Shown in pieces: positions 29,748 to 44,020 of a DNA stretch of 64,000 nucleotides. Origin of the DNA: Sedimentitalea arenosa (lineage in GTDB: Bacteria; Pseudomonadota; Alphaproteobacteria; Rhodobacterales; Rhodobacteraceae); assembly GCF_016428585.1 (NCBI RefSeq), contig NZ_JAELVR010000001.1, forward strand, positions 310,001 to 374,000, written 5' to 3'. The notes under the pieces are model-generated. The model saw only the letters and a program-made list of their open reading frames with translations. It was not told the DNA's origin and did no database searches. Position 1 is the stretch's first letter, and each line of letters begins with the position of its first letter. A program made the position numbers and the translations under genes.

Positions 29748-30407
29748 ATGTTAAGGTTTTGTACAGCATTCGTTCTTGCTCTCTGCCTGCCTGTCGCAGG
29801 CGTCGCCGGTCCCGAGGGGCCGGTCCGGGTGATCGATGGCGATACGCTCGACGTGGGGGATACGCGAGTGCGCCTACATGGCATTGATGCGCCCGAGCGC
29901 GACCAGACCTGCCAGAGACATGCGACGGGTGAGACCTGGGCGTGCGGGGACTGGGTCACGCGTGAAGCGCGCGCACGCTACGAAGGACGCATCGCCGATT
30001 GCGATACGATCGACACCGACCGCTATGGCAGGGTGGTGGCGCGTTGCGAAGTCGGAGGAGTCGACATCGGTCGGTCGCTCGTGTCGGATGGGCTGGCGTT
30101 CGCATATCGCCGCTACTCGATGGACTATGATCTCGAAGAGAAGGGTGCCGCGGTGAATGACCGGGGCCTGCACGCGAGCCGGGTCATGACCCCTTCGGAC
30201 TATCGCGCCGCACGCGCAGTCGTCCCGCAGCCCTCGCGCGCGGATTGCCCGATCAAGGGTAACATCTCATCCAAAGGCACCCGTATCTATCACATGCCGG
30301 GTCAGGAGCACTACGACAGGACGCGGATCAGCACCTCCAAGGGCGAACGGTGGTTCTGCTCGGAGGGGGAGGCGCGGGCCGCCGGGTGGCGGCGCGCCCG
30401 ACGCTAG
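29748..30407 (+). CDS. exported SNase-type thermonuclease with C-terminal extension
   Basis: Nuclease of 219 residues with a signal peptide (MLRFCTAFVLALCLPVAGVAG). The staphylococcal nuclease fold spans about residues 25-140: VRVIDGDTLDVGDTRVRLHG, IDAPERDQTC, and DRYGRVVARCEV with the catalytic Asp/Arg pattern. Four cysteines in the core suggest disulfides. About 55 further residues follow, with CPIKGNISSKGTRIYHMPGQ and then ERWFCSEGEARAAGWRRA, a Cys-pair module often found fused to such nucleases in alphaproteobacteria. It would degrade extracellular or periplasmic nucleic acid. The ATG at 29748 was preferred to an in-frame GTG 21 bases upstream because it opens the signal peptide directly. 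Confidence 0.88.
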   Translation: MLRFCTAFVLALCLPVAGVAGPEGPVRVIDGDTLDVGDTRVRLHGIDAPERDQTCQRHATGETWACGDWVTREARARYEGRIADCDTIDTDRYGRVVARCEVGGVDIGRSLVSDGLAFAYRRYSMDYDLEEKGAAVNDRGLHASRVMTPSDYRAARAVVPQPSRADCPIKGNISSKGTRIYHMPGQEHYDRTRISTSKGERWFCSEGEARAAGWRRARR

Positions 30408-30442
30408 ATTTTCGTCGCGTAAGGTATGTGTTTCGGTCCTTT

Positions 30443-30456
30443 TTGATCCGCATCAA
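30443..30456 (+). promoter_or_regulatory. perfect FNR/FnrL box
   Basis: TTGATCCGCATCAA is an exact match to TTGATNNNNATCAA, the consensus for FNR-type oxygen regulators (FnrL in Rhodobacteraceae). It lies 59 bases before the DUF465 gene, a distance that fits activation from near position -41 if the transcript starts about 20 bases before the gene. Confidence 0.75.
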
Positions 30457-30515
30457 GGCAGGCGCAGCGCCGGCGCGCCTAGTCTTTGGGCAATCGCAGA
30501 AGAAGGAGCGAACGG

Positions 30516-30755
30516 ATGTCCCACACCCCCCACGAACTGGTCGAAGAATTCCCCGACAAGGTCGAGTTGATGCGCCGGCTGAAACAGTCTGATGCGCATT
30601 TCGCGAATCTCGCGGATGAGTATCACGAGGTGAACCGCGCCGTGCATCGTGCGGAAACCAATGTCGAACCGATGGCGGAACTGGCCGAAGGCGAGCTGCG
30701 CAAGAAACGCGCGCTTCTGAAGGACCAGATCTGGAACATCCTGTCGACCGCCTGA
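30516..30755 (+). CDS. YdcH/DUF465 family small protein
   Basis: Protein of 79 residues with the DUF465 layout: two helices joined by a turn, FPDKVELMRRLKQSDAHFAN then LADEYHEVNRAVHRAETN, ending in KKRALLKDQIWNIL. The family forms an antiparallel helical hairpin; its function is not known. The ATG at 30516 follows AAGGAG with 7 bases spacing. A perfect FNR box upstream points to induction at low oxygen. Confidence 0.93.
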   Translation: MSHTPHELVEEFPDKVELMRRLKQSDAHFANLADEYHEVNRAVHRAETNVEPMAELAEGELRKKRALLKDQIWNILSTA

Positions 30756-30762
30756 TCTCCTG

Positions 30763-30791
30763 GCCCGGCGCGAGCGTTCCTCGGGCCGGGC
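30763..30791. terminator. hairpin between convergent DUF465 and pccR genes
   Basis: GCCCGG (30763-30768) pairs with CCGGGC (30786-30791), and inside it CGAG pairs with CTCG. It fills the 37-base gap between the two convergent stop codons; there is little T-richness on either side, so its strength is uncertain. Confidence 0.5.
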
Positions 30792-30792
30792 T

Positions 30793-32193
30793 TCAGCCCA
30801 CCTGGTAGGGCAGAACTCCCCTTTCGTTTTCGTCGATCGTCAAGCGCCGTTCGAGCGGTGGCACGGATCGTTGATGGCAGTTGGTGCGCTCGCAGATCCG
30901 GCAGGAAATCCCGATCGGCTCAAAGCCACCCGTCTTGGACACGTCCAGATCGTCCGCGTAGACGAGTGACCCCGCATGGGCGACCTCACACCCCAGCGCG
31001 ATGGCATAGCGCCGAACCGGTGCGCCGAACGAGCCACCTGGTTTCGAGACATCCCGCGCCAGCGAGATGTAGCGTACCCCGTCCGGGGTTTCCGCCAGTT
31101 GCCGCAGGAAGCGGCCCGGCGTTTCGAACGCCCGGTGCACGTTCCAGAGCGGGCAGGCGCCACCGAAGCGGGCGAACTGGAGCCGTGTGGCACTGTGCCG
31201 TTTCGTGATCGTGCCGGCCTGATCGACGCGCACAAAGAAGAAGGGAATGCCTTTGGCGCCGGGACGCTGGAGCGTCGACAGGCGGTGCGCCACCTGTTCG
31301 ATCGAAGCCCCGAAGCGCAGGCTCAGCTGTTCCAGATCGTGGCGGCACTCCTGCGCCGCCGCGAGAAACGCGCGGTAGGGCATCAGGGCCGCGCCCGCGA
31401 AATAGTTCGCCAGCCCGATCTTGGCGATACTGCGGGCCGCGTCGGAATGGAACCTCGCCAGGTCGAGTGTCGCTTCGATCAACTGTCCCTGCACGATCAG
31501 CGCCAATTGCAGCAGAAGCTGAAACACCTGCGTCTGGGGCGTCGCGCGCGAGGACAGACGCAGGATCTTGCGTTCGGCATCGAATTGGCGCAGCGAGTCC
31601 ATGTCGACCAGCGCCACGACGATCCCGCGCGCCGACATCTGCGCCATGGCGACCGAGCGGATATCCTGCGACGGGCCGACCTGGCTGGCGAAATTCTCCG
31701 CTGCCCTGTCCACCGCGTCGATGTAGTTGTCGCAATAGTGGAAGAAATCGCGCACCTCGTCCCATGGGCTGGCCTGGGTGCGCGCATCCTCGCGCCCCAG
31801 CGCCTCATCGAGCGAGGCGAGGCGTTCATGGGTCTGGCGATAGCTGCGGTGCAGTTCGATGAAGGCCCGCGCCAACGCCGGCGCGTTGGACGCCGTAAGG
31901 CGCAGATCGGCCAGCGGTGGCATCGTGTCGGCAAAGACCGGATCGGCCAACGCCTCTCGCATATCGCTGACCAGCCGCTCGCTGTCGCCGGTGCTGAGTT
32001 CGGTAACGTCGAGACCGAATTCCTGTGCCAGCGCCAGCACGACGGTGGTGCTGACCGGGCGATTGTTGTTCTCCATCTGGTTCAGATAGGGAAGGGATAC
32101 GCCCAGTTTTGCAGCGAATTCCTTTTGCGTCAGGCCAAGGCGGGTGCGCATTTCGCGCAGTTTGGCCCCGGCATAGAGTTTCTGGGTGGGCAT
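30793..32193 (-). CDS. pccR: ScfR-family regulator of propionyl-CoA carboxylase
   Basis: Regulator of 466 residues. An XRE-type HTH lies at about 8-62 (KLREMRTRLGLTQKEFAAKL, then GVSLPYLNQMENNNRPVS). The long C-terminal part is the short-chain fatty acyl-CoA sensing region, ending in a Cys cluster ISCRICERTNCHQR. In Rhodobacter sphaeroides PccR controls the methylmalonyl-CoA route through TTTGCAAA-type sites. Two perfect CTTTGCAAAG palindromes precede this gene, and pccB, pccA and mutase genes lie within 11 kb, which supports the name. The ATG at 32193 has AAAGG 6 bases upstream; that AAAGG overlaps the nearer palindrome. Confidence 0.88.
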   Translation of the reverse strand: MPTQKLYAGAKLREMRTRLGLTQKEFAAKLGVSLPYLNQMENNNRPVSTTVVLALAQEFGLDVTELSTGDSERLVSDMREALADPVFADTMPPLADLRLTASNAPALARAFIELHRSYRQTHERLASLDEALGREDARTQASPWDEVRDFFHYCDNYIDAVDRAAENFASQVGPSQDIRSVAMAQMSARGIVVALVDMDSLRQFDAERKILRLSSRATPQTQVFQLLLQLALIVQGQLIEATLDLARFHSDAARSIAKIGLANYFAGAALMPYRAFLAAAQECRHDLEQLSLRFGASIEQVAHRLSTLQRPGAKGIPFFFVRVDQAGTITKRHSATRLQFARFGGACPLWNVHRAFETPGRFLRQLAETPDGVRYISLARDVSKPGGSFGAPVRRYAIALGCEVAHAGSLVYADDLDVSKTGGFEPIGISCRICERTNCHQRSVPPLERRLTIDENERGVLPYQVG

Positions 32194-32200
32194 GGAGTGC

Positions 32201-32240
32201 CTTTGCAAAGCGACGTCAAGGGCACGCTAACTTTGCAAAG
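32201..32240 (-). promoter_or_regulatory. two CTTTGCAAAG palindromes, PccR autoregulation sites
   Basis: Identical 10-base palindromes at 32201-32210 and 32231-32240, exactly 30 bases apart (about three helical turns), between the MFS stop and the pccR start. The nearer copy shares bases with the pccR ribosome site. TTTGCAAA is the known core of PccR sites. Confidence 0.75.
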
Positions 32241-32256
32241 CCGCGCGCACAAGCGG

Positions 32257-33471
32257 CTAGAGGCCCAGCTGCTTCTGACGCCGAATCACCAGCAGGATCG
32301 CAGCCAGGCCGAGACTCGACGTGATGAACATCATCGCCATCAGGGTGAGCGCGCCGGTTTCTTCGGTCAGCAGGAAGCCCGCGAGCGCGCTGAGCGCGGC
32401 TCCGCCCGCAAGCATGATCGCGCCGCCGAAGCCCGACGCCGTGCCGGCGAGATGTGGGCGCACCGAGAGCATCCCGGCGGTCGCGTTGGGAATGGACATC
32501 CCGTTGCCGAGGCCGACGAAGGTCATGAAGCCGAAGAATGTGAGCGGTGTCGCGGTGCCGGCGAGTATGAACGTCAATGACAGCAGGATGCCGAGGCAGT
32601 TCATCAGGCAGCCCCAGAGGATCATCGAGTTGATGCCGAAGCGCGTGGCGAAGCGCCCGGTGACGAAATTGCCGAGAAAATAGCCGATGGCCGGTGCGCC
32701 AAAGAACAGGCCCAGCACCGCCGGATCCATGCCGAAGATCACCGTACCCACGAAGGGCGCGCCGCCCAGATAGGAAAAGAATGCTCCCGACGACAGCGCC
32801 GAGGCCATCGAGTAGCCCCAGAAGCGCGGACTTCGCAGAAGCTCGGGGTACTCGGCGAACTGGGCGGTCAGGGTCAGCCCGCTTTTGCTGCCGGTCTCGC
32901 CCAGATCGGCCCAGATCAGCGCCAGCATGGCGCCGCCCAGGAGGAACAGCAGCCAGAAATTCGCCTGCCAGCCGAAGACCTGGTCCAGCGCTCCGCCGAC
33001 CGCGGGGCCGACCATCGGCACCACCGCCATGCCCATGGTGACATAGCCGATCATGCTGGCCGCCTTGTCCTGCGGATACATGTCGCGCACGACGGCGCGG
33101 CCCAGAACCATGCAGACCGCGATGATGGCCTGGCACATCCGGAAGAACAGGAACATCGTGGCATTCGGAGCGAAGATGCAGCCGAGCGTTGCCAGCATGA
33201 ACAGAACCGTTCCCCAAAGCGTGACGGGGCGTCGTCCGAACTTGTCCGCGATGGGGCCGATCAGCGTCTGCAGCACCGCGCTGGTGCCCAGATAGAGCGC
33301 GACCGACAGTTGCATCACCTGGTAGTCGGTCTGGAAATGCACCGCCATGTTGGGAAGGCTGGGCAGGAAGATGTTCATCGTCAGCGCCGATAATCCCGTC
33401 ATCAGGATCAGCGTCGCGATATGGGGTGGCGTGCGGCGGTCCAGGAACCGCATTTGCTTGAAGTCGGCCAT
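32257..33471 (-). CDS. Bcr/CflA-type MFS drug efflux permease
   Basis: Twelve-helix MFS permease of 404 residues. The loop 2-3 motif is DKFGRRPVTLWGTVLFMLAT, and antiporter motif C-like sequence lies in helix five (GMAVVPMVGPAVGGALDQVF). This layout fits the DHA1 Bcr/CflA subfamily that expels bicyclomycin, chloramphenicol and similar compounds by proton antiport. It is encoded head to head with pccB across 175 bases, and pccR follows it 63 bases downstream on the same strand. Whether it belongs to the propionate regulon, exporting an acid, is an open question. Confidence 0.9.
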   Translation of the reverse strand: MADFKQMRFLDRRTPPHIATLILMTGLSALTMNIFLPSLPNMAVHFQTDYQVMQLSVALYLGTSAVLQTLIGPIADKFGRRPVTLWGTVLFMLATLGCIFAPNATMFLFFRMCQAIIAVCMVLGRAVVRDMYPQDKAASMIGYVTMGMAVVPMVGPAVGGALDQVFGWQANFWLLFLLGGAMLALIWADLGETGSKSGLTLTAQFAEYPELLRSPRFWGYSMASALSSGAFFSYLGGAPFVGTVIFGMDPAVLGLFFGAPAIGYFLGNFVTGRFATRFGINSMILWGCLMNCLGILLSLTFILAGTATPLTFFGFMTFVGLGNGMSIPNATAGMLSVRPHLAGTASGFGGAIMLAGGAALSALAGFLLTEETGALTLMAMMFITSSLGLAAILLVIRRQKQLGL

Positions 33472-33523
33472 GGTAAATGTTCCCTACCGCCGGAAGCGGG
33501 AGCGGTCTATGGGTTGATCTGTT

Positions 33524-33577
33524 AATTAGCATTTTTGCAATTAGCAAAACACTGGTTCTCTAAAATATGCAAATATT
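33524..33577 (+). promoter_or_regulatory. degenerate PccR-type sites before pccB
   Basis: An AT-rich island in the 175-base gap between the MFS gene and pccB. It holds two direct AATTAGCA repeats (33524-33531 and 33539-33546), a dyad TTTTGC-AATTA-GCAAAA (33533-33549) and a second dyad AATAT-GCAA-ATATT (33564-33577). Both dyads contain TGCAA/TTGCA cores close to TTTGCAAA. TAAAAT at 33561 may be the -10 box of pccB. Confidence 0.55.
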
Positions 33578-33646
33578 CCGAAATCCACTTTGGTCCGCTC
33601 CGCAGGTTCTGTAGGGTCCGGCAAAATCTGCAAGGGAACCCGAACC

Positions 33647-35179
33647 ATGAAAGATATCCTGACCGTGCTGAACGATCGCCGCGCCGCTGCCCGCCTCGGC
33701 GGAGGTCAGAAACGGATCGACGCCCAGCATGCGCGCGGCAAACTGACAGCGCGCGAGCGGATCGATCTGCTGCTGGACGAGGACAGCTTCGAGGAATTTG
33801 ACATGTTCGTCGGCCACCGCTGCACCGATTTCGGGATGGAGCAACAGCGCCCCTATGGCGATGGTGTGGTGACCGGTTGGGGCACGATAAATGGTCGCAT
33901 GGTCTATGTCTTCAGTCAGGATTTCACCGTTCTGGGCGGCTCGGTCAGCGAAACGCATGCGCGCAAGATCTGCAAGATCATGGACATGGCGGTCGAGAAT
34001 GGCGCGCCAATCATCGGCATCAACGACTCGGGCGGTGCGCGGATCCAGGAAGGTGTGGACAGTCTCGCGGGCTATGGGGAAGTCTTCCAGCGCAACATCA
34101 TGGCCTCGGGCGTGGTGCCGCAGATCAGCGTCATCATGGGGCCCTGCGCGGGCGGCGCGGTCTACTCGCCGGCGATGACCGACTTCATCTTCATGGTCAA
34201 GGACACTTCCTACATGTTCGTGACCGGCCCCGACGTGGTCAAGACCGTGACCAACGAGGTTGTGACCGCCGAGGAACTGGGCGGGGCCAGCACCCACACG
34301 CGCAAGTCCTCCGTCGCGGATGCGGCCTTCGAGAACGACGTCGAGGCCTTGGCAGAAGTGCGTCGCCTCGTCGACTTCCTGCCCCTGAACAACCAGGCGA
34401 AACCGCCCGTGCGCCCGTTCTTCGACGAGCCGGGCCGGGTCGAGACGTCGCTCGACACCTTGGTGCCGGAAAACGCCAACAGCCCCTATGATATGAAGGA
34501 ACTGATCCTCAAGATCGCGGACGAGGCGGATTTCTACGAGATCCAGGAAGATTTTGCCAAGAACATCATCACCGGCTTCATTCGCCTCGAGGGCCGCACC
34601 GTGGGGGTTGTCGCGAACCAGCCGATGGTGCTGGCCGGGTGTCTGGACATCGACAGTTCGCGCAAGGCTGCGCGGTTCGTCCGGTTCTGCGATGCGTTCG
34701 AGATTCCGATCCTGACGCTGGTCGACGTGCCGGGCTTCCTGCCGGGGACGGGCCAGGAGTATGGCGGCGTCATCAAGCACGGGGCCAAGCTGCTCTATGC
34801 CTATGGCGAAGCGACAGTGCCGAAGGTCACGGTGATCACGCGCAAGGCCTATGGCGGAGCGTACGTGGTGATGGCGTCCAAGCATCTGCGCAGCGATTTC
34901 AACTACGCCTGGCCGACGTCCGAGATCGCGGTGATGGGCGCCAAGGGCGCGACCGAGATCATCCACCGCGCAGACCTCGGTGACCCGGAAAAGATCGCCA
35001 AGCACACGGCGGATTACGAGGCGCGCTTCGCCAACCCGTTCGTGGCCGCCGAGCGTGGCTTCATCGACGAGGTGATCCAGCCGCGCAGCACAAGGATGCG
35101 CGTCAGCCGCGCCTTTGCGTCGCTGCGCAACAAATCGGTCAAGATGCCCTGGAAGAAGCACGACAACATTCCGCTCTGA
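33647..35179 (+). CDS. pccB: propionyl-CoA carboxylase beta chain
   Basis: Carboxyltransferase subunit of 510 residues, which moves the carboxyl group from biotin (on PccA) to propionyl-CoA, giving (S)-methylmalonyl-CoA. Two crotonase-like halves are visible; oxyanion-hole glycines sit in [20 protein letters not shown] and [20 protein letters not shown], and the acyl-CoA pocket in [17 protein letters not shown]. The C-terminal [19 protein letters not shown] is diagnostic for PccB. The ATG at 33647 follows CAAGGGAACC. PccR-type sites lie upstream. Confidence 0.97.
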
Positions 35180-35232
35180 GGCGAAAGGAACCGTCATGGC
35201 CCGCCCTGCGTTCACTCCGAAAGGAGATTGTT

Positions 35233-35493
35233 ATGCCAAACAAGGACATGTCCAGCATCAAGGACGAAGACACCTACGAAGCCCTGCGCGACAAGGGGTA
35301 TTCCAAGGAAAAATCCGCTCGAATTGCGAATGCGCAGGCGTCATCCGACCAATCCCCTTCGGAAAAGGGGGGCAAGGCGCCGCCCTACGAGGACTGGACG
35401 AAGGACGAACTCTACGATCGAGCTCAAGAGGTCGGCATCGACGGCCGTTCGGACATGACCAAGGACGAGTTGATCGAAGCGTTGCGCGGCTGA
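35233..35493 (+). CDS. small protein with Rho_N-like C-terminal domain
   Basis: Protein of 86 residues in two parts. Residues about 5-32 (DEDTYEALRDKGYSKEKSAR then IANA) resemble the DUF7218-type module; after a Ser/Gly-rich linker, residues 50-86 (YEDWTKDELYDRAQEVGIDG, then RSDMTKDELIEALRG) form the helix-extended-loop-helix seen in the N-terminal part of transcription terminator Rho. Such proteins are usually annotated as nucleic-acid-binding or stress proteins without proof. The ATG at 35233 has AAAGGAG upstream with 7 bases spacing. Confidence 0.85.
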   Translation: MPNKDMSSIKDEDTYEALRDKGYSKEKSARIANAQASSDQSPSEKGGKAPPYEDWTKDELYDRAQEVGIDGRSDMTKDELIEALRG

Positions 35494-35512
35494 CCGAAGC
35501 GGGGTCGTCGTG

Positions 35513-35911
35513 ATGTCTGGTTTGTGGAACAATCAGGCATTCGCGATCACCCATGCCGACGATGGCAAGTTCGTAGGCCAGGGTCTCAGAGCCTTTTTCG
35601 AGTACCGCGATCTCGGAATCCGTGATGCATCAGGCGGTAAATTCGGTGCGCATGTCATAAGAGCCGTCCCGGGAATGGAAAGCCCCGGCGCGTGGCACAG
35701 CCACGATCTGGATTTCCAGATGGTCTACGTCACCAAGGGCTGGGTGGTGTTCGAATACGAAGGGCAGGGCGAGCATATTCTCCGCGAGGGGTCGTGCGTG
35801 CTGCAGCCCCCCGGCATCAAGCACCGCGAATGCCGTCATTCCGACGATATGGAGCTGATCGAGATCGTTTCGCCTGCCGAGTTCGCCACGCGTGATGAGG
35901 ATGCGCCGTGA
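35513..35911 (+). CDS. cupin-domain protein
   Basis: Single-domain cupin of 132 residues. Metal-binding cupin motifs appear as GAWHSHDLDFQMVYVTKGWV (His, His and a downstream residue) and, weaker, GSCVLQPPGIKHRECRHSDD with His. Cupins of this size bind a divalent metal and act as isomerases, dioxygenases or sensors; no substrate can be named. ATG 35513 is preferred over the GTG three bases earlier. Its stop overlaps the next gene (GTGA). Confidence 0.88.
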   Translation: MSGLWNNQAFAITHADDGKFVGQGLRAFFEYRDLGIRDASGGKFGAHVIRAVPGMESPGAWHSHDLDFQMVYVTKGWVVFEYEGQGEHILREGSCVLQPPGIKHRECRHSDDMELIEIVSPAEFATRDEDAP

Positions 35912-36327
35912 AAATCGGACGTGGCACCAAGGCGGCGCGGGCGTTTCCGGTATTGCTTCTCCTCGGCTGGCCGTCATGGACTGCGGCTCAGCAGGTGGTG
36001 CCGGTGCCGTCCGGCCAGCACGTTGAACTGACCGAAGTGCTTCTGGATGACACGCCCGGAGAGACGTGGGCGCGGTTCCGATTCGTGGCGCCGCAGATCG
36101 CGCGCGACGGTGGCGACATCTCGTATGAGACCGCTATCGCGGACATGGATGCGCTGTGTCGAGGCCTGATTCTGCCTTATCTGGAAGAGTATGATCTTGA
36201 CCCGCGCCGCATCGTGATCTCGCTATCCGATCGCGATGTGCCGTTCGGGGCAGCAGATCCCGATGCGACACAGTTCTTCGAGGCGTACCGGCCGAATGCG
36301 GCCGACTGCATTTGGGAGGAATTTTGA
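35908..36327 (+). CDS. exported protein, DUF6497-like
   Basis: Protein of 139 residues with an N-terminal signal peptide (KAARAFPVLLLLGWPSWTAA, cut near AQQ). The mature part has ETWARFRFVAPQIARDGGDI, a Cys in MDALCRG and another in AADCIWEEF at the very end, probably a disulfide, and ISLSDRDVPFGAADPDATQF. It matches my memory of the DUF6497 group in Rhodobacterales; its role is unknown. The GTG start overlaps the cupin stop by four bases, so the two are co-translated. Confidence 0.8.
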   Translation: MKIGRGTKAARAFPVLLLLGWPSWTAAQQVVPVPSGQHVELTEVLLDDTPGETWARFRFVAPQIARDGGDISYETAIADMDALCRGLILPYLEEYDLDPRRIVISLSDRDVPFGAADPDATQFFEAYRPNAADCIWEEF

Positions 36328-36492
36328 TGTTTCCACAACATGTTGCGGTCGACGCTTCCCATCATCTTTCACCTGAGGTTTCGCTGCCACGCTGCCCCGG
36401 CGATCCGCAAAATTCGTATCAATCTGGCGTTGAATATCGTATGAATTTACCGAGCCGTGCAAACGCGGCCGGGGTCCGACAGAACGGGCCGG

Positions 36493-36514
36493 CCGGAGCG
36501 GGCGCTCCGGTTTC
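36493..36514 (+). terminator. possible terminator after the exported DUF6497-like gene
   Basis: Perfect 7-bp stem CCGGAGC (36493-36499) / GCTCCGG (36504-36510), loop GGGC, followed by TTTC. It lies 166 bases past the stop and 28 bases before the next small gene. Confidence 0.55.
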
Positions 36515-36541
36515 ATTCGGCAGAGCAGTCAGGAGACATCG

Positions 36542-36682
36542 ATGGGTCACTGCATCAGACTGTGCGCGGCAGCCTTCTTGGTTGCCACAACTGCTGCGTG
36601 CGAATTGCAGCCTCAGGAAGAGTTCGTCATCCGCGAGCCGGAGCCGATTTCCGTCGCCCGGACGGCCACCGGAAAGTACTAG
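36542..36682 (+). CDS. 46-residue lipoprotein
   Basis: A very small complete gene, easily missed. It encodes a lipoprotein signal peptide ending in a lipobox-like TAAC (Cys20), so the mature lipid-anchored peptide is only about 27 residues: CELQPQEEFVIREPEPISVA then RTATGKY. The ribosome site AGGAG lies 6 bases before the ATG. The mature part is acidic then basic, with no domain. Function unknown. It sits between pccB and pccA with three other genes for small exported proteins nearby. Confidence 0.75.
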   Translation: MGHCIRLCAAAFLVATTAACELQPQEEFVIREPEPISVARTATGKY

Positions 36683-36739
36683 CCGCAGACAGCATCCGAA
36701 GACACCGCGGCGGCTGACATTGGCTGGCGGGAGGCCACC

Positions 36740-37087
36740 ATGCTGAAGCATCGCGGCTTTCCCGGGCGTTTGCCGGGTACGGATTTCCAGTTCACGATCA
36801 GGCGGCCCAATCCAAAGGGGGCGACGCCGCTTGTGCGGCGCGAGCGCTATGCCGATCGCAGGCCCGCCGACCGGCGCGCAGACGCCGCGTTCATGGCGGC
36901 GCTCTGGACGCAATTCGGCGATCAACCATTCGAGCGTGGCAACCTGGATGCCGGGCGTCTCAGTTGGTTGTTCGAGCGCGAAGTGGTGCCCGCCGAAGAT
37001 CCGTTTGACCCCACCAGCTACGACGCGCTTCTGGTGATCGACGGCGCGGCGGCGCGCGCGGCCTTTCCCGAGGTGTTCACAGCGTGA
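36740..37087 (+). CDS. conserved hypothetical protein, 115 residues
   Basis: Soluble protein of 115 residues without signal peptide or membrane helix. The N-terminal half is very basic (FTIRRPNPKGATPLVRRERY, then ADRRPADRRADAAF) and the C-terminal half acidic (FEREVVPAEDPFDPTSYDAL). I know no named family. The ATG at 36740 follows GGGAGGCCACC. It is 57 bases after the small lipoprotein gene. A nucleic-acid or acidic-partner contact through the basic half is possible but unproven. Confidence 0.7.
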   Translation: MLKHRGFPGRLPGTDFQFTIRRPNPKGATPLVRRERYADRRPADRRADAAFMAALWTQFGDQPFERGNLDAGRLSWLFEREVVPAEDPFDPTSYDALLVIDGAAARAAFPEVFTA

Positions 37088-37415
37088 TCGGCAGGTTTCG
37101 GCATAACCCCTCGTCATTTCGGCAGAAAACGGCTCATTCGATGACAATCGAAAAAATGGGGTTGGATTCTTGCGCGAAATCTACAATCGTTATGGTTGTA
37201 GGCGGTGTTTCTATTCCCGCACCGTTTGCAGACTATCTATTCCGTACCCCTTCCCTGAGCGGGCAGGCATCCGTCGTTGACGAGTGCCTGCCCGTTTCAC
37301 GTTTTGGGCGGGAAAGCGCCGAACCCAAGGGGTGTGACACAATCTTCTTGAGGAACTTTATGGATGAGGCATGGGTTTTCTCATCGAGCGTTAAGAATCC
37401 AAAAGGATGTGTCCC
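37088..37415. other. 328-base interval without a gene, with one hairpin
   Basis: No protein gene is convincing. A 10-bp perfect stem CGGGCAGGCA (37260-37269) / TGCCTGCCCG (37285-37294) with a 15-base loop is followed by TTTCACGTTTT and could terminate a short transcript. Upstream, around 37140-37200, the sequence is AT-rich (for example TTGGAT and TACAAT spaced 14 bases), which could start one. A small RNA is therefore possible but not shown. Confidence 0.35.
37260..37297 (+). terminator. hairpin with short T-tract
   Basis: Stem CGGGCAGGCA / TGCCTGCCCG (10 bp, perfect) with a 15-base loop, then TTT. It is either a terminator for reads from the 115-residue gene or the end of a small RNA. Confidence 0.5.
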
Positions 37416-37625
37416 ATGCAAACTCTTCTCAAGACAGCGACCCTTGTCGGTCTTCTCGGCGGCCTCGCGGCTTGCGGTGAAACCACGACAGAGCAGGCGC
37501 TCTACGGCGGCGGTGCCGGTTTCCTCGGCGCAGCGGCGCTTGACACCAACGTGGTCGCGGGCGCGGCTGCCGGCGCTGCGGCCAACGTGCTGTACTGCGA
37601 CCAGAACCCGGGCAAGTGCAACTGA
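37416..37625 (+). CDS. small glycine/alanine-rich lipoprotein, 69 residues
   Basis: Lipoprotein of 69 residues: signal peptide MQTLLKTATLVGLLGGLAAC with lipobox LAAC (Cys20). The mature part is a glycine-zipper-like stretch (GGGAGFLGAAALDTNVVAGA followed by AAGAAANV), then YCDQNPGKCN with two cysteines at the end. Glycine-zipper lipoproteins of this size are often outer-membrane stress proteins. ATG 37416 has AAAGGA 8 bases upstream; ATG 37407 overlaps that site and is less likely. It precedes pccA by 168 bases. Confidence 0.82.
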   Translation: MQTLLKTATLVGLLGGLAACGETTTEQALYGGGAGFLGAAALDTNVVAGAAAGAAANVLYCDQNPGKCN

Positions 37626-37793
37626 CCGCTCCGGTCTCTCCGGTCAATCGTCGCGCACTGTACTGATCCGCGCCGTCCCGCCGCGGCGTGATGGCGACAC
37701 GTTCCTAACCACCATTCCGCATTTCACCGCCCTGGCCGCCCGCGCCAGCGGCGGTGTTCTGCGTTCCGCAACAACACACGTGAAGGACCCCAC

Positions 37794-39794
37794 ATGTTCA
37801 ACAAGATCCTGATTGCCAATCGGGGCGAAATTGCCTGCCGAGTCATCAAGTCTGCCCGCAAGATGGGAATTTCGACCGTCGCGATCTATTCGGATGCCGA
37901 TCGTCAGGCGCTGCATGTGCAGATGGCAGACGAGGCGATCCATATCGGGCCTTCGCCCGCGAACCAGTCCTATATCGTGATCGACAAGGTGATGGATGCG
38001 ATTCGCCAATCCGGTGCGCAGGCGGTGCATCCGGGGTATGGCTTCCTGTCGGAGAACAGCAAGTTCGCCGAGGCGTTGGAAGCCGAAGGCATCGCCTTTG
38101 TCGGCCCGCCCAAGGGCGCGATCGAGGCGATGGGCGACAAGATCACCTCCAAGAAGATCGCGCAGGAAGCCGGCGTGTCGACGGTGCCGGGCTACATGGG
38201 CCTGATCGCCGATGCGGACGAGGCGGTGAAGATTTCCGGAGAAATCGGCTATCCGGTGATGATCAAGGCCAGCGCCGGGGGCGGCGGCAAAGGCATGCGC
38301 ATCGCCTGGACCGACGAGGAAGCGCGCGAAGGTTTCCAGAGTTCCAAGAACGAGGCGGCCAGCAGCTTTGGGGATGACCGCATCTTCATCGAGAAGTTCG
38401 TAACCCAGCCGCGCCATATCGAGATTCAGGTGCTCTGCGACAGCCATGGCAACGGTGTGTACCTGGGGGAGCGGGAATGCTCGATCCAGCGCCGCAACCA
38501 GAAAGTCGTGGAAGAGGCACCAAGCCCGTTCCTCGACGAAACCACCCGCCGCGCGATGGGGGAGCAGGCCGTCGCGCTGGCGCAGGCTGTCGGATATACC
38601 AGCGCGGGCACAGTCGAATTCATCGTCGATGGCGACAAGAATTTCTATTTCCTCGAAATGAACACCCGCCTGCAGGTGGAGCATCCCGTTACGGAACTGA
38701 TCACCGGAATCGACCTTGTCGAACAGATGATCCGGGTCGCCAACGGCGAAAAGCTCCCTTTCAAGCAGGACGATATCAAGCTGAACGGCTGGGCCATCGA
38801 GAACCGGCTCTATGCCGAAGATCCTTACCGCGGGTTCCTGCCCTCGATCGGGCGCCTGACCCGTTATCGCCCGCCGGCCGAAGTGGCCGAGGACAGCCAT
38901 GTGGTCCGCAACGACACCGGCGTCTACGAGGGCGGCGAGATCAGCATGTACTACGACCCGATGATCGCCAAGCTCTGCACTTGGGCGCCCACCCGCGCCG
39001 AGGCCATCGAACGGATGCGTGTGGCGCTCGACAGTTTCGAGGTCGAGGGAATTGGTCACAATCTGCCGTTCCTGTCGGCGGTCATGGATCATCCGATCTT
39101 CGTCGCCGGTGACATGACCACCGCCTTCATCGAGGAGCAGTATCCCGAGGGCTTCGACGGGGTTGAGCTGCCCGAGCCCGAACTCCGCCGGATCGCCGCG
39201 GCCTGTGCCGCGATGCACCGGGTGGCCGAAATCCGGCGGACCCGCGTGTCCGGCCGGATGGACAACCACGAACGCAAGGTCGGAATTGACTGGATCGTCA
39301 GCTTGCAGGGTCAACGCTACGAGACGGCGATCGCCGCAGATCATGACGGCTCGACCGTCACCTTTGGCGATGGGCACGAGATGCGCGTTTCCAGCGATTG
39401 GACGCCCGGTGACCAGTTGGCCACGCTGACCGTCGAGGGCAGCCCCCTGGTTCTGAAGGTCGGCAAGATCAGCGGCGGCTTCCGAATCCGGTCGCGCGGT
39501 GCCGACATCAAGGTGCATGTTCGAACGCCGCGGCAGGCCGAACTGGCCGATCTGATGCCCGAGAAGGTCGCCCCTGACACGTCCAAGATGCTGCTCTGCC
39601 CGATGCCGGGGCTGATCGTGAAGGTTGATGTGGCGGTCGGCGACGAGGTTCAGGAAGGGCAGGCGCTGTGCACTGTCGAGGCGATGAAGATGGAGAACAT
39701 CCTGCGCGCCGAACGCAAGGGCATGGTTTCCAGGATCAATGCCGCCGCCGGAGACAGCCTGGCCGTCGACGACGTCATCATGGAGTTCGAGTGA
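37794..39794 (+). CDS. pccA: propionyl-CoA carboxylase alpha chain
   Basis: Biotin carboxylase subunit of 666 residues. Biotin carboxylase domain: MFNKILIANRGEIACRVIKS at the start, ATP-grasp loop MIKASAGGGGKGMRIAW, and EMNTRLQVEHPVTE with catalytic residues. A BT domain (about 510-590) contacts PccB. The C-terminal biotinyl domain has CTVEAMKMENIL with the biotinylated Lys632, 35 residues from the end as usual. It works with PccB in propionyl-CoA carboxylation. The ATG at 37794 follows GAAGGACCCCAC. Biotin ligase is not encoded here. Confidence 0.97.
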   Translation: MFNKILIANRGEIACRVIKSARKMGISTVAIYSDADRQALHVQMADEAIHIGPSPANQSYIVIDKVMDAIRQSGAQAVHPGYGFLSENSKFAEALEAEGIAFVGPPKGAIEAMGDKITSKKIAQEAGVSTVPGYMGLIADADEAVKISGEIGYPVMIKASAGGGGKGMRIAWTDEEAREGFQSSKNEAASSFGDDRIFIEKFVTQPRHIEIQVLCDSHGNGVYLGERECSIQRRNQKVVEEAPSPFLDETTRRAMGEQAVALAQAVGYTSAGTVEFIVDGDKNFYFLEMNTRLQVEHPVTELITGIDLVEQMIRVANGEKLPFKQDDIKLNGWAIENRLYAEDPYRGFLPSIGRLTRYRPPAEVAEDSHVVRNDTGVYEGGEISMYYDPMIAKLCTWAPTRAEAIERMRVALDSFEVEGIGHNLPFLSAVMDHPIFVAGDMTTAFIEEQYPEGFDGVELPEPELRRIAAACAAMHRVAEIRRTRVSGRMDNHERKVGIDWIVSLQGQRYETAIAADHDGSTVTFGDGHEMRVSSDWTPGDQLATLTVEGSPLVLKVGKISGGFRIRSRGADIKVHVRTPRQAELADLMPEKVAPDTSKMLLCPMPGLIVKVDVAVGDEVQEGQALCTVEAMKMENILRAERKGMVSRINAAAGDSLAVDDVIMEFE

Positions 39795-39845
39795 CCCCGT
39801 GAGCCAACGCCCGGCAAATAACGCGAGAGTGCAGCCAGACCGGGG

Positions 39846-40289
39846 TCAGAAGCCTCGGCGCTGGTTCACCTCGCGCTCGCGTTCGGGCATCTTGTCGATC
39901 GAGCGGGTGATCTCGCGCACGGTCCAGGGCAGGGGCTTGCGCAGCTTGACCCCGCCATCCTTGCCGATGATGACAAGCATGAAGCCCCGCGGGCGAAGCT
40001 TGGTGCGCAAGGGCGAGTTGGCGCTGGGATCGGTGTCGGTGAGCACCACCACGTCGCGCTCGAGCAGCATGTCCATGCCGTCGGTCAAACGCTCGACCTG
40101 TTCGGAAAAGCGCGGATCGGCAGGAGAGTCCGCGAAGACGACAACCGGGCGATTGACCCAGAGAAATTCGCTCAGGTCGCTTTCGCCCGCCGGCCGGATC
40201 AGCTCTTGCGGATCGGGGGGTGAACTGTCCTGTGCACCTGCCGGAACGGCGAATAGTGCAGCGAAAACAAGACTTAGTATTCGGTTCAT
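39846..40289 (-). CDS. exported DUF4174 protein
   Basis: Protein of 147 residues with a signal peptide (MNRILSLVFAALFAVPAGAQ, cut after GAQ). The mature part has a thioredoxin-like DUF4174 layout: VNRPVVVFADSPADPRFSEQ, then RDVVVLTDTDPSA and MLVIIGKDGGVKLRKPLPWT, but without the CxxC redox pair. DUF4174 function is unknown. The ATG at 40289 has AGGAG 5 bases upstream. It converges with pccA (51 bases between stops) and is divergent from the P-loop gene. Confidence 0.88.
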   Translation of the reverse strand: MNRILSLVFAALFAVPAGAQDSSPPDPQELIRPAGESDLSEFLWVNRPVVVFADSPADPRFSEQVERLTDGMDMLLERDVVVLTDTDPSANSPLRTKLRPRGFMLVIIGKDGGVKLRKPLPWTVREITRSIDKMPEREREVNQRRGF

Positions 40290-40466
40290 TCTGACTCCTG
40301 TGGTTTTGAATATAATGGCGATGCGTGCGAATGCGACTGCTGATTTGACCGAGGGGGCCAAAAACATCGACGTTAATCGCATGGTGAGGGGTTCCGGAGA
40401 ATGATGGCGGCAATTCCTGCAACCTGGCCGGGTGGGACGGCCCTGTCCCGAAGGATCGCCAAAGCG

Positions 40467-41399
40467 ATGGATGTCATTCTGCATGTCGGCGCGCATCGCT
40501 GCGCCACGACCACATTTCAGCACTACCTGCGCCGCAACTCCGAGCGGCTGAACACGGACGGCATCGGCGTCTGGGAACCACGCCGAACCCGCAACGGGTT
40601 GTTTCACGGCATTCTTCCGGGTCCGCAGGCAGACGTTCGCGGCAGCCTTTATCGCCGAGGTGTCGGGCGGGTGCGTGTCAATCTCGCTCTGGCGGCCGAG
40701 CGGTTCCGCAACCTGATCGTTTCAGACGAGAACATGCTCGGTACGATGGGGCAGAACCAACGCAGCGCATCGCTCTATGGCGCGGCGGGGGATCGCATGG
40801 CGCGCTTCTTTCCGGCCTTCGAGGGCCATGTGAGCGACGTAATCCTGAACATCCGCTCGCAGGAAACCTATTGGGCCTCTGTCTTCGGATACGGTTTGAT
40901 GCGCGGGCGCCCCATGCCCGAGCCCGAGATGCTGGAGCGGCTGTCGCACGACCAGCGAAGCTGGCGCGACGTGATCACCGACCTGGCCTGCGCCTTGCCC
41001 GGTGTGCGGCTTTGGGTCCTGCCTTTCGAGACGTTCGCCGGGCGCCCGGATGCGCAACTGGCGACACTGGTGCCGGGCAAGGCGCCAAGGCAGCATGCCC
41101 GCATCCGGGTCAACGCGACTGCGCGGCTGCAAGAGCTGCGTGCCGACATAGCGCCGCGCGAGGCGGCGCGATTGCCTGAGGGCGAGGGCCGCTTTCAGCC
41201 GTTCACACGAAGTCAGATCGTGCGGTTGCGCGAACGCTATGCCGACGACGTGATGTGGCTGATGTCCGGCGCGGACGGGCTGGCCTGGATGATGGACGAT
41301 CCTGAAAAGAGATGGACGGGGCTCAACCCGTCTTCGACCGACATGACAAGAGGAAGATCACATGACGAGCGACAAGGACGAATGGAAGGCACTGGCTGA
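40467..41399 (+). CDS. P-loop, sulfotransferase-like protein
   Basis: Protein of 310 residues. The N-terminus [20 protein letters not shown] resembles the 5'-PSB/P-loop of sulfotransferases (strand, then a GxHR-x-TT loop before a helix), and the later [11 protein letters not shown] and [20 protein letters not shown] fit the strand carrying the 3'-phosphate site. No acceptor can be predicted. ATG 40467 is chosen because the family starts there; in-frame ATGs at 40401/40404 are alternatives. The 3' end overlaps the mutase gene by 38 bases in another frame, so the two are probably co-transcribed. Confidence 0.7.
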
Positions 41400-43491
41400 G
41401 GCGGAGCTGCGCGGCCGGTCCCTGGATGATCTCACCTGGACGACGCTGGAGGGGATCGAGGTGCAGCCGCTCTACACGGCTGACGATCTCGCCGGGGTCA
41501 ACCATCTGGGGTCGATCCCCGGTGCCGCGCCCTTCACCCGCGGGGTCAAGGCGACGATGTATGCCGGGCGTCCCTGGACGATCCGGCAATATGCGGGCTT
41601 CTCGACCGCCGAGGAATCCAACGCCTTCTATCGCCGTGGCCTCGCCGCCGGGCAGCAGGGGGTCAGCGTCGCTTTCGATTTGGCCACGCATCGGGGCTAT
41701 GACAGCGACCATCCGCGCGTTGTCGGCGATGTGGGCAAGGCGGGCGTTGCGATCGATTCCGTCGAGGACATGAAAATCCTGTTCGATGGCATTCCGCTCG
41801 ACAAGGTCAGCGTCAGCATGACGATGAACGGCGCGGTGATCCCGATCCTCGCGAACTTCATCGTGACGGGCGAGGAGCAGGGCCATGACAGGTCAGTCCT
41901 GTCGGGCACCATCCAGAACGATATCCTCAAGGAGTTCATGGTCCGCAACACCTATGTCTATCCGCCGGAACCGAGCATGCGGATCGTGGCCGACATCATC
42001 GAATACACCGCGAACGAGATGCCCAGGTTCAACAGCATCTCGATCTCGGGCTACCATATGCAGGAAGCGGGCGCGAACCTCGTGCAGGAACTGGCCTATA
42101 CGCTGGCGGATGGGCGAGAATACGTGCGCACGGCGATCGCGCGCGGCATGGATGTCGACCGCTTCGCCGGGCGCTTGTCGTTCTTCTTCGCCATCGGCAT
42201 GAATTTCTTCATGGAGGCGGCCAAGCTGCGCGCCGCGCGGTTGCTCTGGCACCGCATCATGAGCGAGTTCGAACCCAAGAACCCCAAGTCGATGATGCTG
42301 CGCACCCATTGCCAGACCAGCGGTGTCAGCCTGCAGGAACAGGATCCCTACAACAACGTGGTGCGCACCGCCTACGAGGCGATGGCGGCAGCCTTGGGCG
42401 GCACCCAATCGCTGCACACCAACGCGCTGGACGAGGCGATTGCCCTGCCGACGGACTTCAGCGCCCGCATCGCGCGCAACACACAGCTGATCCTGCAGGA
42501 GGAAACCGGCATCACCAACGTGGTCGATCCGCTGGCCGGCTCCTACTACGTCGAGAAGCTGACCCATGACCTGGCCACCGAAGCGTGGAAGCTGATCGAG
42601 GAAGTGGAGGAGATGGGCGGGATGACCAAGGCGGTCGCCAGCGGCCTGCCGAAGCTGCGGATCGAGGAAAGTGCCGCGCGGCGCCAGGCGATGATCGACC
42701 GGGGCGAGGAAGTGATCGTCGGCGTGAACAAGTATCGCCTGCAGAAAGAGGACGAACTCGACATCCTCGACATCGACAACGCCAAGGTCCGCGAATCCCA
42801 GGTCGCGCGGCTCGAGCGGATCCGGTCCGAACGGGACCAGGCCGCCTGCGACGCGGCGCTCACCGAAATCACTCGCCGCGCAACCGAGGGCGGCAATCTT
42901 CTCGAAGCGGCCGTCGAGGCCGCGCGCGCTCGGGCCTCTGTCGGAGAAATCAGCATGGCAATGGAAAAGGCATTCGGACGTCACCGCGCGGAAGTAAAGA
43001 CGCTCGCGGGCGTCTATGGCGCGGCCTACGAGGGCGACGAAGGCTTCGCCGCGATCCAGAAATCGGTCGAAGAGTTCGCCGAGGCGGAGGGCCGCCGGCC
43101 GCGGATGCTCGTGGTCAAGATGGGCCAGGACGGACATGACCGGGGCGCCAAGGTGATCGCGACGGCCTTCGCGGATATCGGGTTCGATGTCGACGTGGGC
43201 CCGCTGTTCCAGACCCCGCAGGAGGCGGCGCAGGATGCGGTCGACAACGACGTGCACGTGATCGGGATCTCCTCGCAGGCGGCCGGTCACAAGACGCTGG
43301 CCCCGCAGCTGGTGGCCGCGCTCAAGGAGGCCGGGGCCGAGGACATCATCGTGATCTGCGGCGGTGTCATCCCGCAGCAGGACTACAAGTTCCTGCGGGA
43401 CAACGGGGTCAAGGCGATCTTCGGGCCGGGCACCAACATTCCCGAGGCGGCACAGGATATCCTCAGGCTGATCCGCGACGCGCGGGCCTGA
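41362..43491 (+). CDS. methylmalonyl-CoA mutase, B12-dependent, single chain
   Basis: Enzyme of 709 residues that rearranges (R)-methylmalonyl-CoA to succinyl-CoA using adenosylcobalamin. The catalytic TIM barrel fills about 1-560, with [20 protein letters not shown] and [20 protein letters not shown]. The cobalamin domain follows at about 570-709 with the base-off motif [18 protein letters not shown] (histidine that ligates cobalt), and [16 protein letters not shown] plus [10 protein letters not shown]. Single-chain form similar to the ScpA/MCM alpha chain. The ATG at 41362 follows AAGAGGAAGATCAC. The chaperone MeaB and the epimerase are not in the window. Confidence 0.97.
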
Positions 43492-43976
43492 TGCGAAAGC
43501 GCGCCCGCATCCTTGCGGGCATGGCGGCGGGTGCCCTGTGGGCGCTCGCCGTTGTCGGCGGGCCGCAACTGGCGGGTCTGCCCTACTTGCCGGCGCCCCT
43601 GTCCGTGCCCGGAGCCCTCGTTCCGCCGGGGATCGTTATGGCGGCGATGATCGGTCGCCTGGCGCAGCGACGCTTTTGGGATGATGCGCTCATCGACGGG
43701 CAGGACTTTCCATCCGGCAGCCCCGGCTGGGTCGATCAGCGCGTGCTGCACAACACGATCGAACAGGTGGTCCTGGCGCTCGTCACCTGGCCCTTCGTGG
43801 CACTGACCCTTGGTGGCGGCGTCGTCCTCGTGATGGGCGTGGCGTTCGCCCTCTCACGGCTTGCCTTCTGGATCGGGTATCACGCGGCTCCGCCACTGCG
43901 CGCCTTCGGCTTCGCCGCGACCTTCTACACAACGGTGTTGGCGGCATTCTGGGCGGTATTTGCCTGGGCGATCTGA
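43491..43976 (+). CDS. MAPEG-family membrane protein
   Basis: Membrane protein of 161 residues with four hydrophobic helices. The MAPEG pattern is seen as VLHNTIEQVVLALVTWPFVA (helix two) and FALSRLAFWIGYHAAPPLRA (helix three to four). MAPEG covers glutathione transferases and leukotriene C4 synthases in eukaryotes; bacterial members near acyl-CoA genes are uncharacterised. The ATG overlaps the mutase stop (TGATG), so it is translated from the same transcript. Confidence 0.85.
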   Translation: MRKRARILAGMAAGALWALAVVGGPQLAGLPYLPAPLSVPGALVPPGIVMAAMIGRLAQRRFWDDALIDGQDFPSGSPGWVDQRVLHNTIEQVVLALVTWPFVALTLGGGVVLVMGVAFALSRLAFWIGYHAAPPLRAFGFAATFYTTVLAAFWAVFAWAI

Positions 43977-43985
43977 TGGCGACCA

Positions 43986-44017
43986 AACCCGGGCAACCGT
44001 GATCGGTTACCCGGGTT
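43986..44017. terminator. hairpin between the convergent MAPEG and nhaA genes
   Basis: Long stem AACCCGGG-C-AACCG (43986-43999) / CGGTT-A-CCCGGGTT (44004-44017) with one mismatch and a TGAT loop, filling the 44-base gap between the two stop codons. It can stop transcription from both sides; T-tracts are short. Confidence 0.7.
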
Positions 44018-44020
44018 GAT

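Follow-up and report, generated by a model that had tools for sequence, protein, structure and literature searches.

In the alphaproteobacterium Sedimentitalea arenosa (Rhodobacteraceae), the genes for the beta and alpha chains of propionyl-CoA carboxylase (PCC), pccB and pccA, are parted by an interval of small genes, and our analysis indicates that this interval probably acts as a translational relay, in which open reading frames (ORFs) that we term bridge ORFs hand ribosomes on across long spacers. The interval lies in a 64,000-nucleotide (nt) stretch of contig NZ_JAELVR010000001.1 (positions 310,001 to 374,000), referred to as a whole as the window, and all coordinates given below are positions in the window. 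Between pccB (33647–35179, plus strand; PF01039, E 2.4e-200) and pccA (37794–39794, plus strand; PF18140 and biotin carboxylase domains), bridge ORF 1 (36327–36746, plus strand) runs from the stop codon of a DUF6497 gene (35908–36327, plus strand; PF20107, 145.2 bits against a gathering cutoff of 24.3), which it overlaps in a TGATG, to a TGA at +4 of p115, a gene for a 115-residue protein (36740–37087, plus strand). Bridge ORF 2 (37084–37812, plus strand) then runs from a GTGA at the p115 stop codon to a TGA at +16 of pccA. In the relay that we propose, the DUF6497 gene would be the first member and pccA the receiver.

These observations rest on a comparison across the Rhodobacteraceae, sampled at about one genome per genus, in which a PccA match (E ≤ 1e-250) was found in 181 of 198 genomes, as well as in all five genomes of the window's own genus. 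The main set comprises 140 loci of about 18 kilobases (kb) around pccA each (shorter at contig ends), taken with the best PccA matches first; these are the best of the PccA places listed plus the congeners, weaker places having been left out, and presence counts are accordingly valid for PccA of at least 76% identity. In all 140 relatives pccB lies upstream of pccA, and the interval between them measures 8 to 4224 nt, with a median of 2174 (window included). Analyses based on start codons exclude five copies of p115 without the exact HxGFP motif (loci L013, L074, L093, L107 and L136 in our numbering, in which L denotes loci and G genomes).

Between p115 and pccA, we counted stop codons in spacers of 200–1200 nt, a range that holds 122 loci including the window (18 of the 140 fall outside it and are treated separately). 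Across 26,747 codons per frame, the three frames contain 582, 542 and 85 stops, the last figure being that of frame 2, the frame of bridge ORF 2; the log10 Poisson probability of this depletion is about -139 when codons are treated as independent. Spacers that are fully open number 3, 6 and 77 by frame, where mononucleotide shuffles give 1.3, and the spacer length is 1 modulo 3 in 81 of the 122. When the last 20 nt are ignored, frame 2 is open in 102 of the 122 loci: in 66 of 80 whose spacer contains lip69, a small lipoprotein gene in another frame, and in 36 of 42 without it. Extending the count to every spacer of 200 nt or more (130 in all), we find 114 with frame 2 open as far as 45 nt before pccA, 7 with another frame open, one open after a single early stop and 8 with no open frame. 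Stop codons are the only strongly depleted triplets in this frame: TAA occurs at 0.05 times, TGA at 0.11 times and TAG at 0.18 times expectation, and the next most depleted codon stands at 0.60 times.

Openness is retained over much greater lengths. Seven of the eight p115–pccA spacers longer than 1.2 kb (the exception being L136) are open for 406–756 codons, with 0 stops against 13–35, and five of these seven cross a minus-strand frame of 384–417 residues. In L011, L012, L031, L081 and L100 a porin-like minus-strand gene, so labeled from a reading of the translations, stands between p115 and pccA while the plus-strand frame is still open. Four named Rhodobacterales plasmid records, three from Paracoccus and one from Paroceanicella, were read after the bridges had been discovered, and each is open exactly to +16 of pccA. 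None of the four exceeds 83% identity to any discovery locus; the Paracoccus records are 93–94% identical to one another, so that the four together test only two further lineages. Where p115 stands without the pcc genes, by contrast, the frame is closed: its first stops fall 59, 143 and 8 nt along in L175, L176 and L178, and 158, 17, 26 and 71 nt along after four Rhizobiaceae copies of p115.

The same pattern is found upstream of p115. DUF6497-to-p115 spacers from 98 loci contain 356, 400 and 10 stops by frame, and with the last 20 nt ignored the bridge 1 frame is open in 95 of the 98, the other frames being open in 1 and 4. Among spacers of at least 200 nt, 93 of 96 are open in the bridge frame and 2 more in another. 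The spacer length is 1 modulo 3 in 97 of 107 loci, and in 93 of the 107 the bridge closes at position +4, +1 or -2 relative to p115. The TGA at +4 is supplied by a CTG codon for Leu2 of p115, and CTG is used there in 56 of 64 bridge-1 loci; of the other Leu codons, 394 of 780 are CTG, and where no DUF6497 match lies upstream Leu2 is CTG in 6 of 12 loci. In Paroceanicella, the ORF immediately ahead of p115 is annotated as a hypothetical protein; we take it by position as the DUF6497 counterpart, and its last 7 nt are shared with p115. An arrangement of this kind suggests that the two genes may originally have overlapped directly, the spacer parting them only afterwards.

Both bridges also begin where a relay would need them to. 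All 102 of the 102 loci with an open bridge 2 have a bridge-frame start codon between -12 and +11 of the p115 stop, compared with 16 and 17 for the other frames. At the DUF6497 stop the same holds for 90 of 91 loci (17 and 6 for the other frames). At the pccB stop, start codons are spread over the three frames (52, 35 and 68 of 141). We also considered a -1 frameshift that would extend p115, but the start codons in 102 of 102 loci favor reinitiation; moreover, of the 7 loci in which another frame is the open one, 5 have a start codon for it where p115 ends, as judged by eye from the sequence contexts. The interval thus shows a start codon near the upstream stop and a frame end near the downstream start, two features expected of termination–reinitiation. 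Reporter work by Huber et al. (PMC10666635) indicates that such coupling requires overlaps or very short gaps, with +38 nt abolishing it or nearly so in E. coli; a bridge would therefore be necessary across long spacers.

Taken together, these features suggest the following sequence of events. Ribosomes finishing the DUF6497 gene would reinitiate at the start codon overlapping its stop, translate the roughly 140 codons of bridge 1 (which in this genome overlaps the lipoprotein gene lip46), terminate a few bases from where p115 begins and start anew on that gene. On reaching the end of p115 they would reinitiate again, mostly at an NTGA, and would translate bridge 2, mostly 100–340 codons long (with inserted genes, up to 756), passing a terminator-like hairpin and lip69 before they arrive where pccA begins. 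From the sequence comparisons we infer translation of the bridges, dependence of PccA synthesis on them and a terminator held off by their translation. The cupin gene that precedes DUF6497 in the window has a stop codon that overlaps the DUF6497 start by 4 nt (GTGA, at 35908), and given this overlap the coupled chain may start upstream of DUF6497 in this genome.

With respect to where the constraint ends, frame 2 contains only 7 stops in 22,383 codons at more than 63 nt from pccA, versus about 0.023 per codon in the other frames (114 loci, 8 loci with at least three frame-2 stops having been set aside; all 122 loci give 47 stops in 24,039 codons versus 541 and 514). Within 24 nt of pccA there are 29 stops in 912 codons in the same 114 loci, which is normal or above, and the constraint hence fades within about 25–60 nt of the gene. 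Among the 122 loci, 105 have a bridge of over 100 codons that reaches at least to 60 nt before pccA; 57 end at +16, and one runs on as far as +254.

These end points bear on the possibility that the bridges serve as translation cover only, with ribosomes keeping Rho, or the intrinsic terminator, from ending transcription and with translation of pccA and p115 beginning at Shine–Dalgarno (SD) sites of their own. Such cover would make sense of the covarying terminator-like hairpin inside bridge 2 (see below), and an SD-like 4-mer is indeed present at pccA in 131 of 141 loci and at p115 in 84 of 135. It also agrees with a review (PMC12548453) that puts polarity down to the loading of Rho onto RNA left untranslated, and according to which Rho-independent termination can be influenced by translation upstream. 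The constraint, however, reaches to roughly 25–60 nt from pccA and to a few nt from p115, which is nearer than protection against Rho would be expected to require, and the CTG preference at Leu2 of p115 in bridge-1 loci likewise speaks against cover alone. We therefore consider cover without hand-on unlikely.

It could be asked whether the open frames are an artifact of base composition, antisense coding or annotation, since long chance frames do occur in high-GC genomes. The other two frames of the very same DNA carry normal numbers of stops, and control spacers are flat: 913, 946 and 873 stops by frame between pccB and p115; 1032, 868 and 1150 between pccA and the downstream gene mcm, where there is no bridge; and 594, 559 and 511 in 130 other same-strand spacers of 240–1500 nt, a test limited to spacers within the fetched loci. 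Antisense genes as the cause of the open frame were rejected, as TCA, the reverse-strand counterpart of a stop, is enriched 1.75-fold in the frame instead of depleted and there is no general minus-strand frame. An artifact is thus next to inconceivable. The simple gene caller used in the survey of other spacers called p115 in only 108 loci, and in the survey's DUF6497 class (500–1500 nt; 206, 223 and 83 stops, 10 of 34 open in frame 2) some spacers extend beyond p115; the bridge 1 figures given above rest on the dedicated DUF6497-to-p115 count and not on this survey.

What selection appears to keep in the bridges is mainly freedom from stops, and their amino-acid sequence drifts. The GC fraction by codon position from p115 to a C-rich motif within bridge 2 is flat (0.61/0.56/0.60), and other parts outside lip69 are nearly so, compared with 0.72/0.49/0.73 in p115 and 0.60/0.43/0.81 in pccA. 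Substitution rates by codon position show the same: 44 cross-genus pairs give 0.340/0.346/0.333 for the opening 300 nt of bridge 2 and 0.348/0.347/0.334 for the opening 180 nt of bridge 1, and congeners give 0.258/0.250/0.263 and 0.317/0.297/0.297, respectively. p115 itself has the third-position excess of a protein-coding gene (0.165/0.137/0.419 cross-genus, 0.150/0.096/0.496 in congeners). The cross-genus alignments are only about 65% identical, which makes the substitution test weak when taken alone, but flat GC and flat substitution together lead us to conclude that no bridge protein appears to be conserved. No conserved leader peptide or stall motif was seen in bridge 2; only R(Y/T)PS(P/L) recurs, at the C-rich RNA motif, and that motif has nearly invariant wobble bases among the loci chosen by it and persists in L175, where the frame is closed.

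These data also weigh on whether the bridges encode real, fast-evolving proteins. Open frames of about 140–240 codons with coupled starts would be compatible with genes of this kind, and in Ruegeria pomeroyi peptides were detected from poorly conserved proteins encoded within Roseobacter operons, including one next to pccB (PMC3305630). Against this stand the flat GC and substitution profiles outside the lipoprotein genes, the lack of any Pfam match to bridge ORF 1 or 2, the scarcity of conserved residues outside the C-rich stretch and the regions shared with lip69 and pccA, and the fact that whole antisense genes fit in the frame. A coding function of this type is very improbable.

Bridge 2 contains a C-rich RNA motif, UACCCCUUCCCU (37245–37256, plus strand), followed directly by an intrinsic-terminator-like hairpin with a T-rich tail (37257–37297, plus strand). 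Of 140 loci, 95 have a copy within one mismatch of the consensus, almost always in the expected stretch and mostly about 142–178 nt after the p115 stop; since loci were picked by motif match, the conservation of its single bases is in part a product of that choice. In 87 of the 95 loci the motif lies at a distance of 1 modulo 3 from the p115 stop, which implied that a reading frame crosses the spacer and was the route by which the bridges were discovered. Our first reading of the motif and hairpin as a conserved small-RNA gene after p115 was abandoned in light of this spacing and the terminator-like form of the hairpin.

Specifically, 86.8% of stem cells are paired in 70 aligned sequences, and the covariation score of 0.653 compares with 0.246 in shuffles (none of 500 reaches the observed value) and with at most 0.202 when the structure is slid. 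All 13 stem pairs have changed on both sides, a count that 19 of 500 shuffles also reach. With its covarying GC stem and U-rich tract, the element is a putative intrinsic terminator. A model of motif plus terminator (R1), built from 70 of 94 motif sequences, has its sole strong match in the window's own genome at this locus (E 9.6e-12; the next is 0.039). Three relatives have a weaker second match elsewhere in the genome, at G002:C4:213592, G005:C1:255605 and G198:C4:282255 (E 4e-6 to 2e-4). A search of window positions 30000–45000 against Rfam (E ≤ 1) returned nothing at the motif and one weak match inside pccA (38222–38281), below the gathering score.

An alternative emphasis is that the motif and hairpin form a ribosome-gated attenuator, a regulated terminator at which the rate of crossing bridge 2 sets the transcription of pccA; this would be compatible with the relay. 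The fairly fixed position of the motif after the p115 stop, the covarying hairpin that follows it and the single strong model match in the genome are all in keeping with such a device. In genome G077 (L175), however, motif and hairpin are kept after p115 with no pccA downstream and with frame 2 closed, so the pair appears to go with the p115 transcript, and the open frame with the connection from p115 to pccA; the element may simply be the ordinary 3′ end of the p115 RNA. Moreover, the motif is beyond one mismatch in 45 of 140 loci, and neither motif nor hairpin was found in the Paracoccus and Paroceanicella plasmid records, where the bridge is open. Regulated attenuation is possible, though on balance doubtful. 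In terms of the relay itself, the hairpin would terminate transcription in vivo, with translating ribosomes preventing it from doing so.

Several observations weigh against a relay. With the SD-like 4-mer found at pccA in 131 of 141 loci, pccA may initiate alone; 8 of 130 loci have no open frame, and ten loci have spacers shorter than 200 nt. CTG is used at pccA codon 6 in 73 of 74 loci, versus at least 23 of 28 and 30 of 38 at other frame relations, so the +16 end follows from conserved pccA codons and is weak evidence as an end point. The gradient of stops at 24–63 nt from pccA is not sharp, and in L178, where p115 is parted from the pcc genes, frame 1 is open for 469 nt. Among 141 other same-strand spacers of at least 250 nt, those with a single open frame include 13 in frame 2, 11 in frame 1 and 4 in frame 0, so that isolated open spacers are found elsewhere too. 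Whole bridge 1, lip46 included, is not flat in substitution (0.271/0.340/0.265), as would be expected if lip46 is constrained in its own frame. Finally, long junk polypeptides should be costly to make.

At the center of the interval is p115, which is present between pccB and pccA in 139 of 140 relatives (the sole exception is L139) at a median identity of 77%; presence of interval genes was scored by tblastn at E ≤ 1e-3. Its product has 26 invariant columns in 45 diverse members and no Pfam or NCBIfam match, and a Pfam scan of the 45 members gave two chance-level matches only, in one member each. The AlphaFold model is confident (predicted local distance difference test, pLDDT, 91.5; predicted template modeling score, pTM, 0.85). 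A fold search returned no clear relative (best Foldseek E 2.1), a result that says nothing on whether the fold is new, and for similarity to MarR-like winged helices the best VIA Z was 3.3 over 75 residues. No export signal is visible by eye, no predictor having been used.

In an order-level sample p115 was found in 101 of 101 genomes, every one from the window's family, and in a class-level sample in 4 of 289, all four being family members; among the 285 genomes without it, the 20 listed belong to other families. The idea that p115 is confined to the Rhodobacteraceae was nonetheless refuted by 34 plasmid records, including records from Rhizobiaceae at about 60% identity. In 3 of 4 Rhizobiaceae plasmid records p115 directly follows a gene for a yghU-like glutathione-dependent oxidoreductase, without adjacent pcc genes; yghU is annotated in Shinella and was judged from translations in Sinorhizobium and Ensifer. 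The arrangement is seen at 4058–5360 of L197 and also in L198 and L200, and the p115 neighborhood of R. tropici (L199) differs.

This distribution argues against a structural role for p115 in the carboxylase. Among 31 family genomes in which PccA is missing, split, duplicated, weak or without p115, 19 carry p115, and it stands without adjacent pcc genes in G077, G127 and G150. In G127 (L176, 5717–9735) it lies between its usual MFS and DUF4174 neighbors with no pccB, pccA or mcm there, and a compact, divergent pccBA–mcm set, 64–75% identical, is found elsewhere in that genome (L177). Conversely, nine further pccA loci lack an adjacent p115 (L179–L186 and L193): pccB is close to pccA in L179, L180, L182, L185 and L186, the gap is 1.1–2.4 kb in L181, L184 and L193, and L183 has no pccB match. 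Because each occurs without the other, p115 as a third or obligate PCC subunit is ruled out; it is a separate conserved protein and the core gene of the interval. A second type of pccBA–mcm cluster, with a pccB–pccA gap of less than 40 nt, was observed in L185, L186, L139, L179 and L180, and a compact cluster coexists with an interrupted one in G198 and G139.

Around this core, the remaining interval genes are layered. The DUF6497 gene lies between pccB and pccA in 112 of 140 relatives (median identity 45%), and its product is probably exported, as judged from its N-terminus by eye. lip69 (37416–37625, plus strand), encoding a 69-residue glycine-rich lipoprotein in another frame inside bridge 2, is present in 84 (50%), and lip46 (36542–36682, plus strand), encoding a 46-residue lipoprotein in another frame inside bridge 1, in 65 (50%). 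With the window included, a lipobox-like motif occurs in 66 of 66 copies of lip46 and 84 of 85 copies of lip69, and both look real. The other two genes are accessory: the cupin (35513–35911, plus strand; Cupin_2, PF07883, 34.3 bits against a cutoff of 27.2) is present in 22 of 140 (82%), and a small protein with DUF7218 and Rho_N domains (35233–35493, plus strand; PF23855, 80.6 bits against 27; PF07498, 26.3 against 24.9) in 7 (73%). All four congeners carry p115, DUF6497, lip46 and lip69; one of the four has the cupin and none the Rho_N protein. Only 1 of 140 relatives has all six small genes together. A literature search for the function of the interval genes gave nothing.

An earlier note on this DNA had offered two possible readings of these six frames, an envelope module selected together with the use of propionyl-CoA or a site at which accessory genes land, and had omitted the overlapping frames 36327–36746 and 37084–37812 as well as the hairpin at 37257–37297. 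The six frames are all present at or very near the places it gave, and their orthologues in relatives make them more than chance open frames. They are real genes but not one module, and of the two alternatives neither describes the block as a whole. Accessory insertion is part of the story, as seen from the cupin (22 loci), the Rho_N protein (7 loci) and the porin-like gene (5 loci), but p115 is near-universal. Random gene content in close relatives, which the note had named as a refuting outcome, is the case for the cupin and the Rho_N protein and not for the other four genes. In favor of a propionate-linked envelope module, the interval does commonly hold two lipoprotein genes and one whose product is probably exported; the lipoproteins, however, are found in only 65 and 84 of 140 relatives, and the near-universal p115 has no export signal by eye and stands without adjacent pcc genes in several lineages. 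The envelope proposal therefore fell away, and we regard it as highly improbable.

Beyond the interval, an ScfR-type regulator (PF09856, the family of PccR) is encoded at 30793–32193 on the minus strand. Downstream, mcm, for methylmalonyl-CoA mutase (41362–43491, plus strand), takes its name from its position and from an scpA annotation at the corresponding place of two plasmid records. Its start is overlapped by the end of a frame of 332 residues (40401–41399) that has no Pfam match and has homologues at the same place in many relatives, and a frame with a MAPEG-family match (43491–43976, match at 43521–43973) begins at its stop codon. Elsewhere in the fetched loci, spacers of 461–1060 nt after a gene labeled DjlA-like by eye from its C-terminus have frame 2 alone open (L002 at 16404, L073 at 16458 and L104 at 10820); these possibly hold an uncalled gene or possibly another bridge.

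More broadly, it is conceivable, though we hold the idea only tentatively, that Rhodobacterales use bridge ORFs generally, keeping a stop-free and otherwise meaningless frame across genes or terminators that intrude into coupled operons. Ribosomes would then run through the intrusion, keep the terminator open on their way and start again on the gene that follows. If this is so, the poorly conserved proteins of Roseobacter sucCD and sdh operons would be further cases, and PccA output at the pcc locus would be tied to the translation of p115. Long operon spacers could be selected for translation alone, with the protein and most of the nucleotide sequence unconserved; conservation-based gene finders and intergenic surveys would miss such bridges, which could also explain odd, unconserved peptides inside Roseobacter operons. 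The bridges offer a simple handle on how ribosomes are handed on along an operon, as one base change can be placed in one of three frames.

In relation to known systems, a full-text literature search, with most subscription journals outside its reach, returned no description of long intergenic bridging ORFs and related cases only. The bridges resemble termination–reinitiation coupling at ATGA and TGATG pairs (PMC10666635) in that a start lies at or near the upstream stop and a downstream gene at the frame end. Unlike known coupled pairs, which are joined directly, a long frame that is stop-free and without conserved sequence is interposed here, twice in a row, and bridged spacers are mostly 300–1,000 nt and up to 2,300 nt long. 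Short upstream ORFs that deliver ribosomes (PMC12548453) and the 8-residue intergenic mgtQ of Salmonella (PMC8092293) are similar in that translation, and not the product, is thought to matter; the bridges differ from them in spanning 100–750 codons, lying between operon genes, overlapping other genes and being kept across a family. The CruR-type upstream ORF of Bordetella, with its Rho-dependent termination (PMC9426467), provides a case in which upstream translation decides the transcription of the rest of the operon, a role that for the bridges is proposed only; CruR is a conserved sensor protein (DUF2946), whereas the bridges encode no conserved protein. A parallel in related bacteria is a set of Ruegeria coding sequences in the sucCD and sdh operons and beside pccB (PMC3305630), which are likewise little-conserved open frames in conserved operons. 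These were found by peptides, some with co-transcription by reverse-transcription polymerase chain reaction (RT-PCR), which in R. pomeroyi covers SPO1094 (propionyl-CoA carboxylase)–PG022–SPO1095 only. In the accessible part of that study they are treated as novel genes, and conservation of the frame without conservation of the sequence, the feature that sets the bridges of the pccB–pccA interval apart, is not described there.

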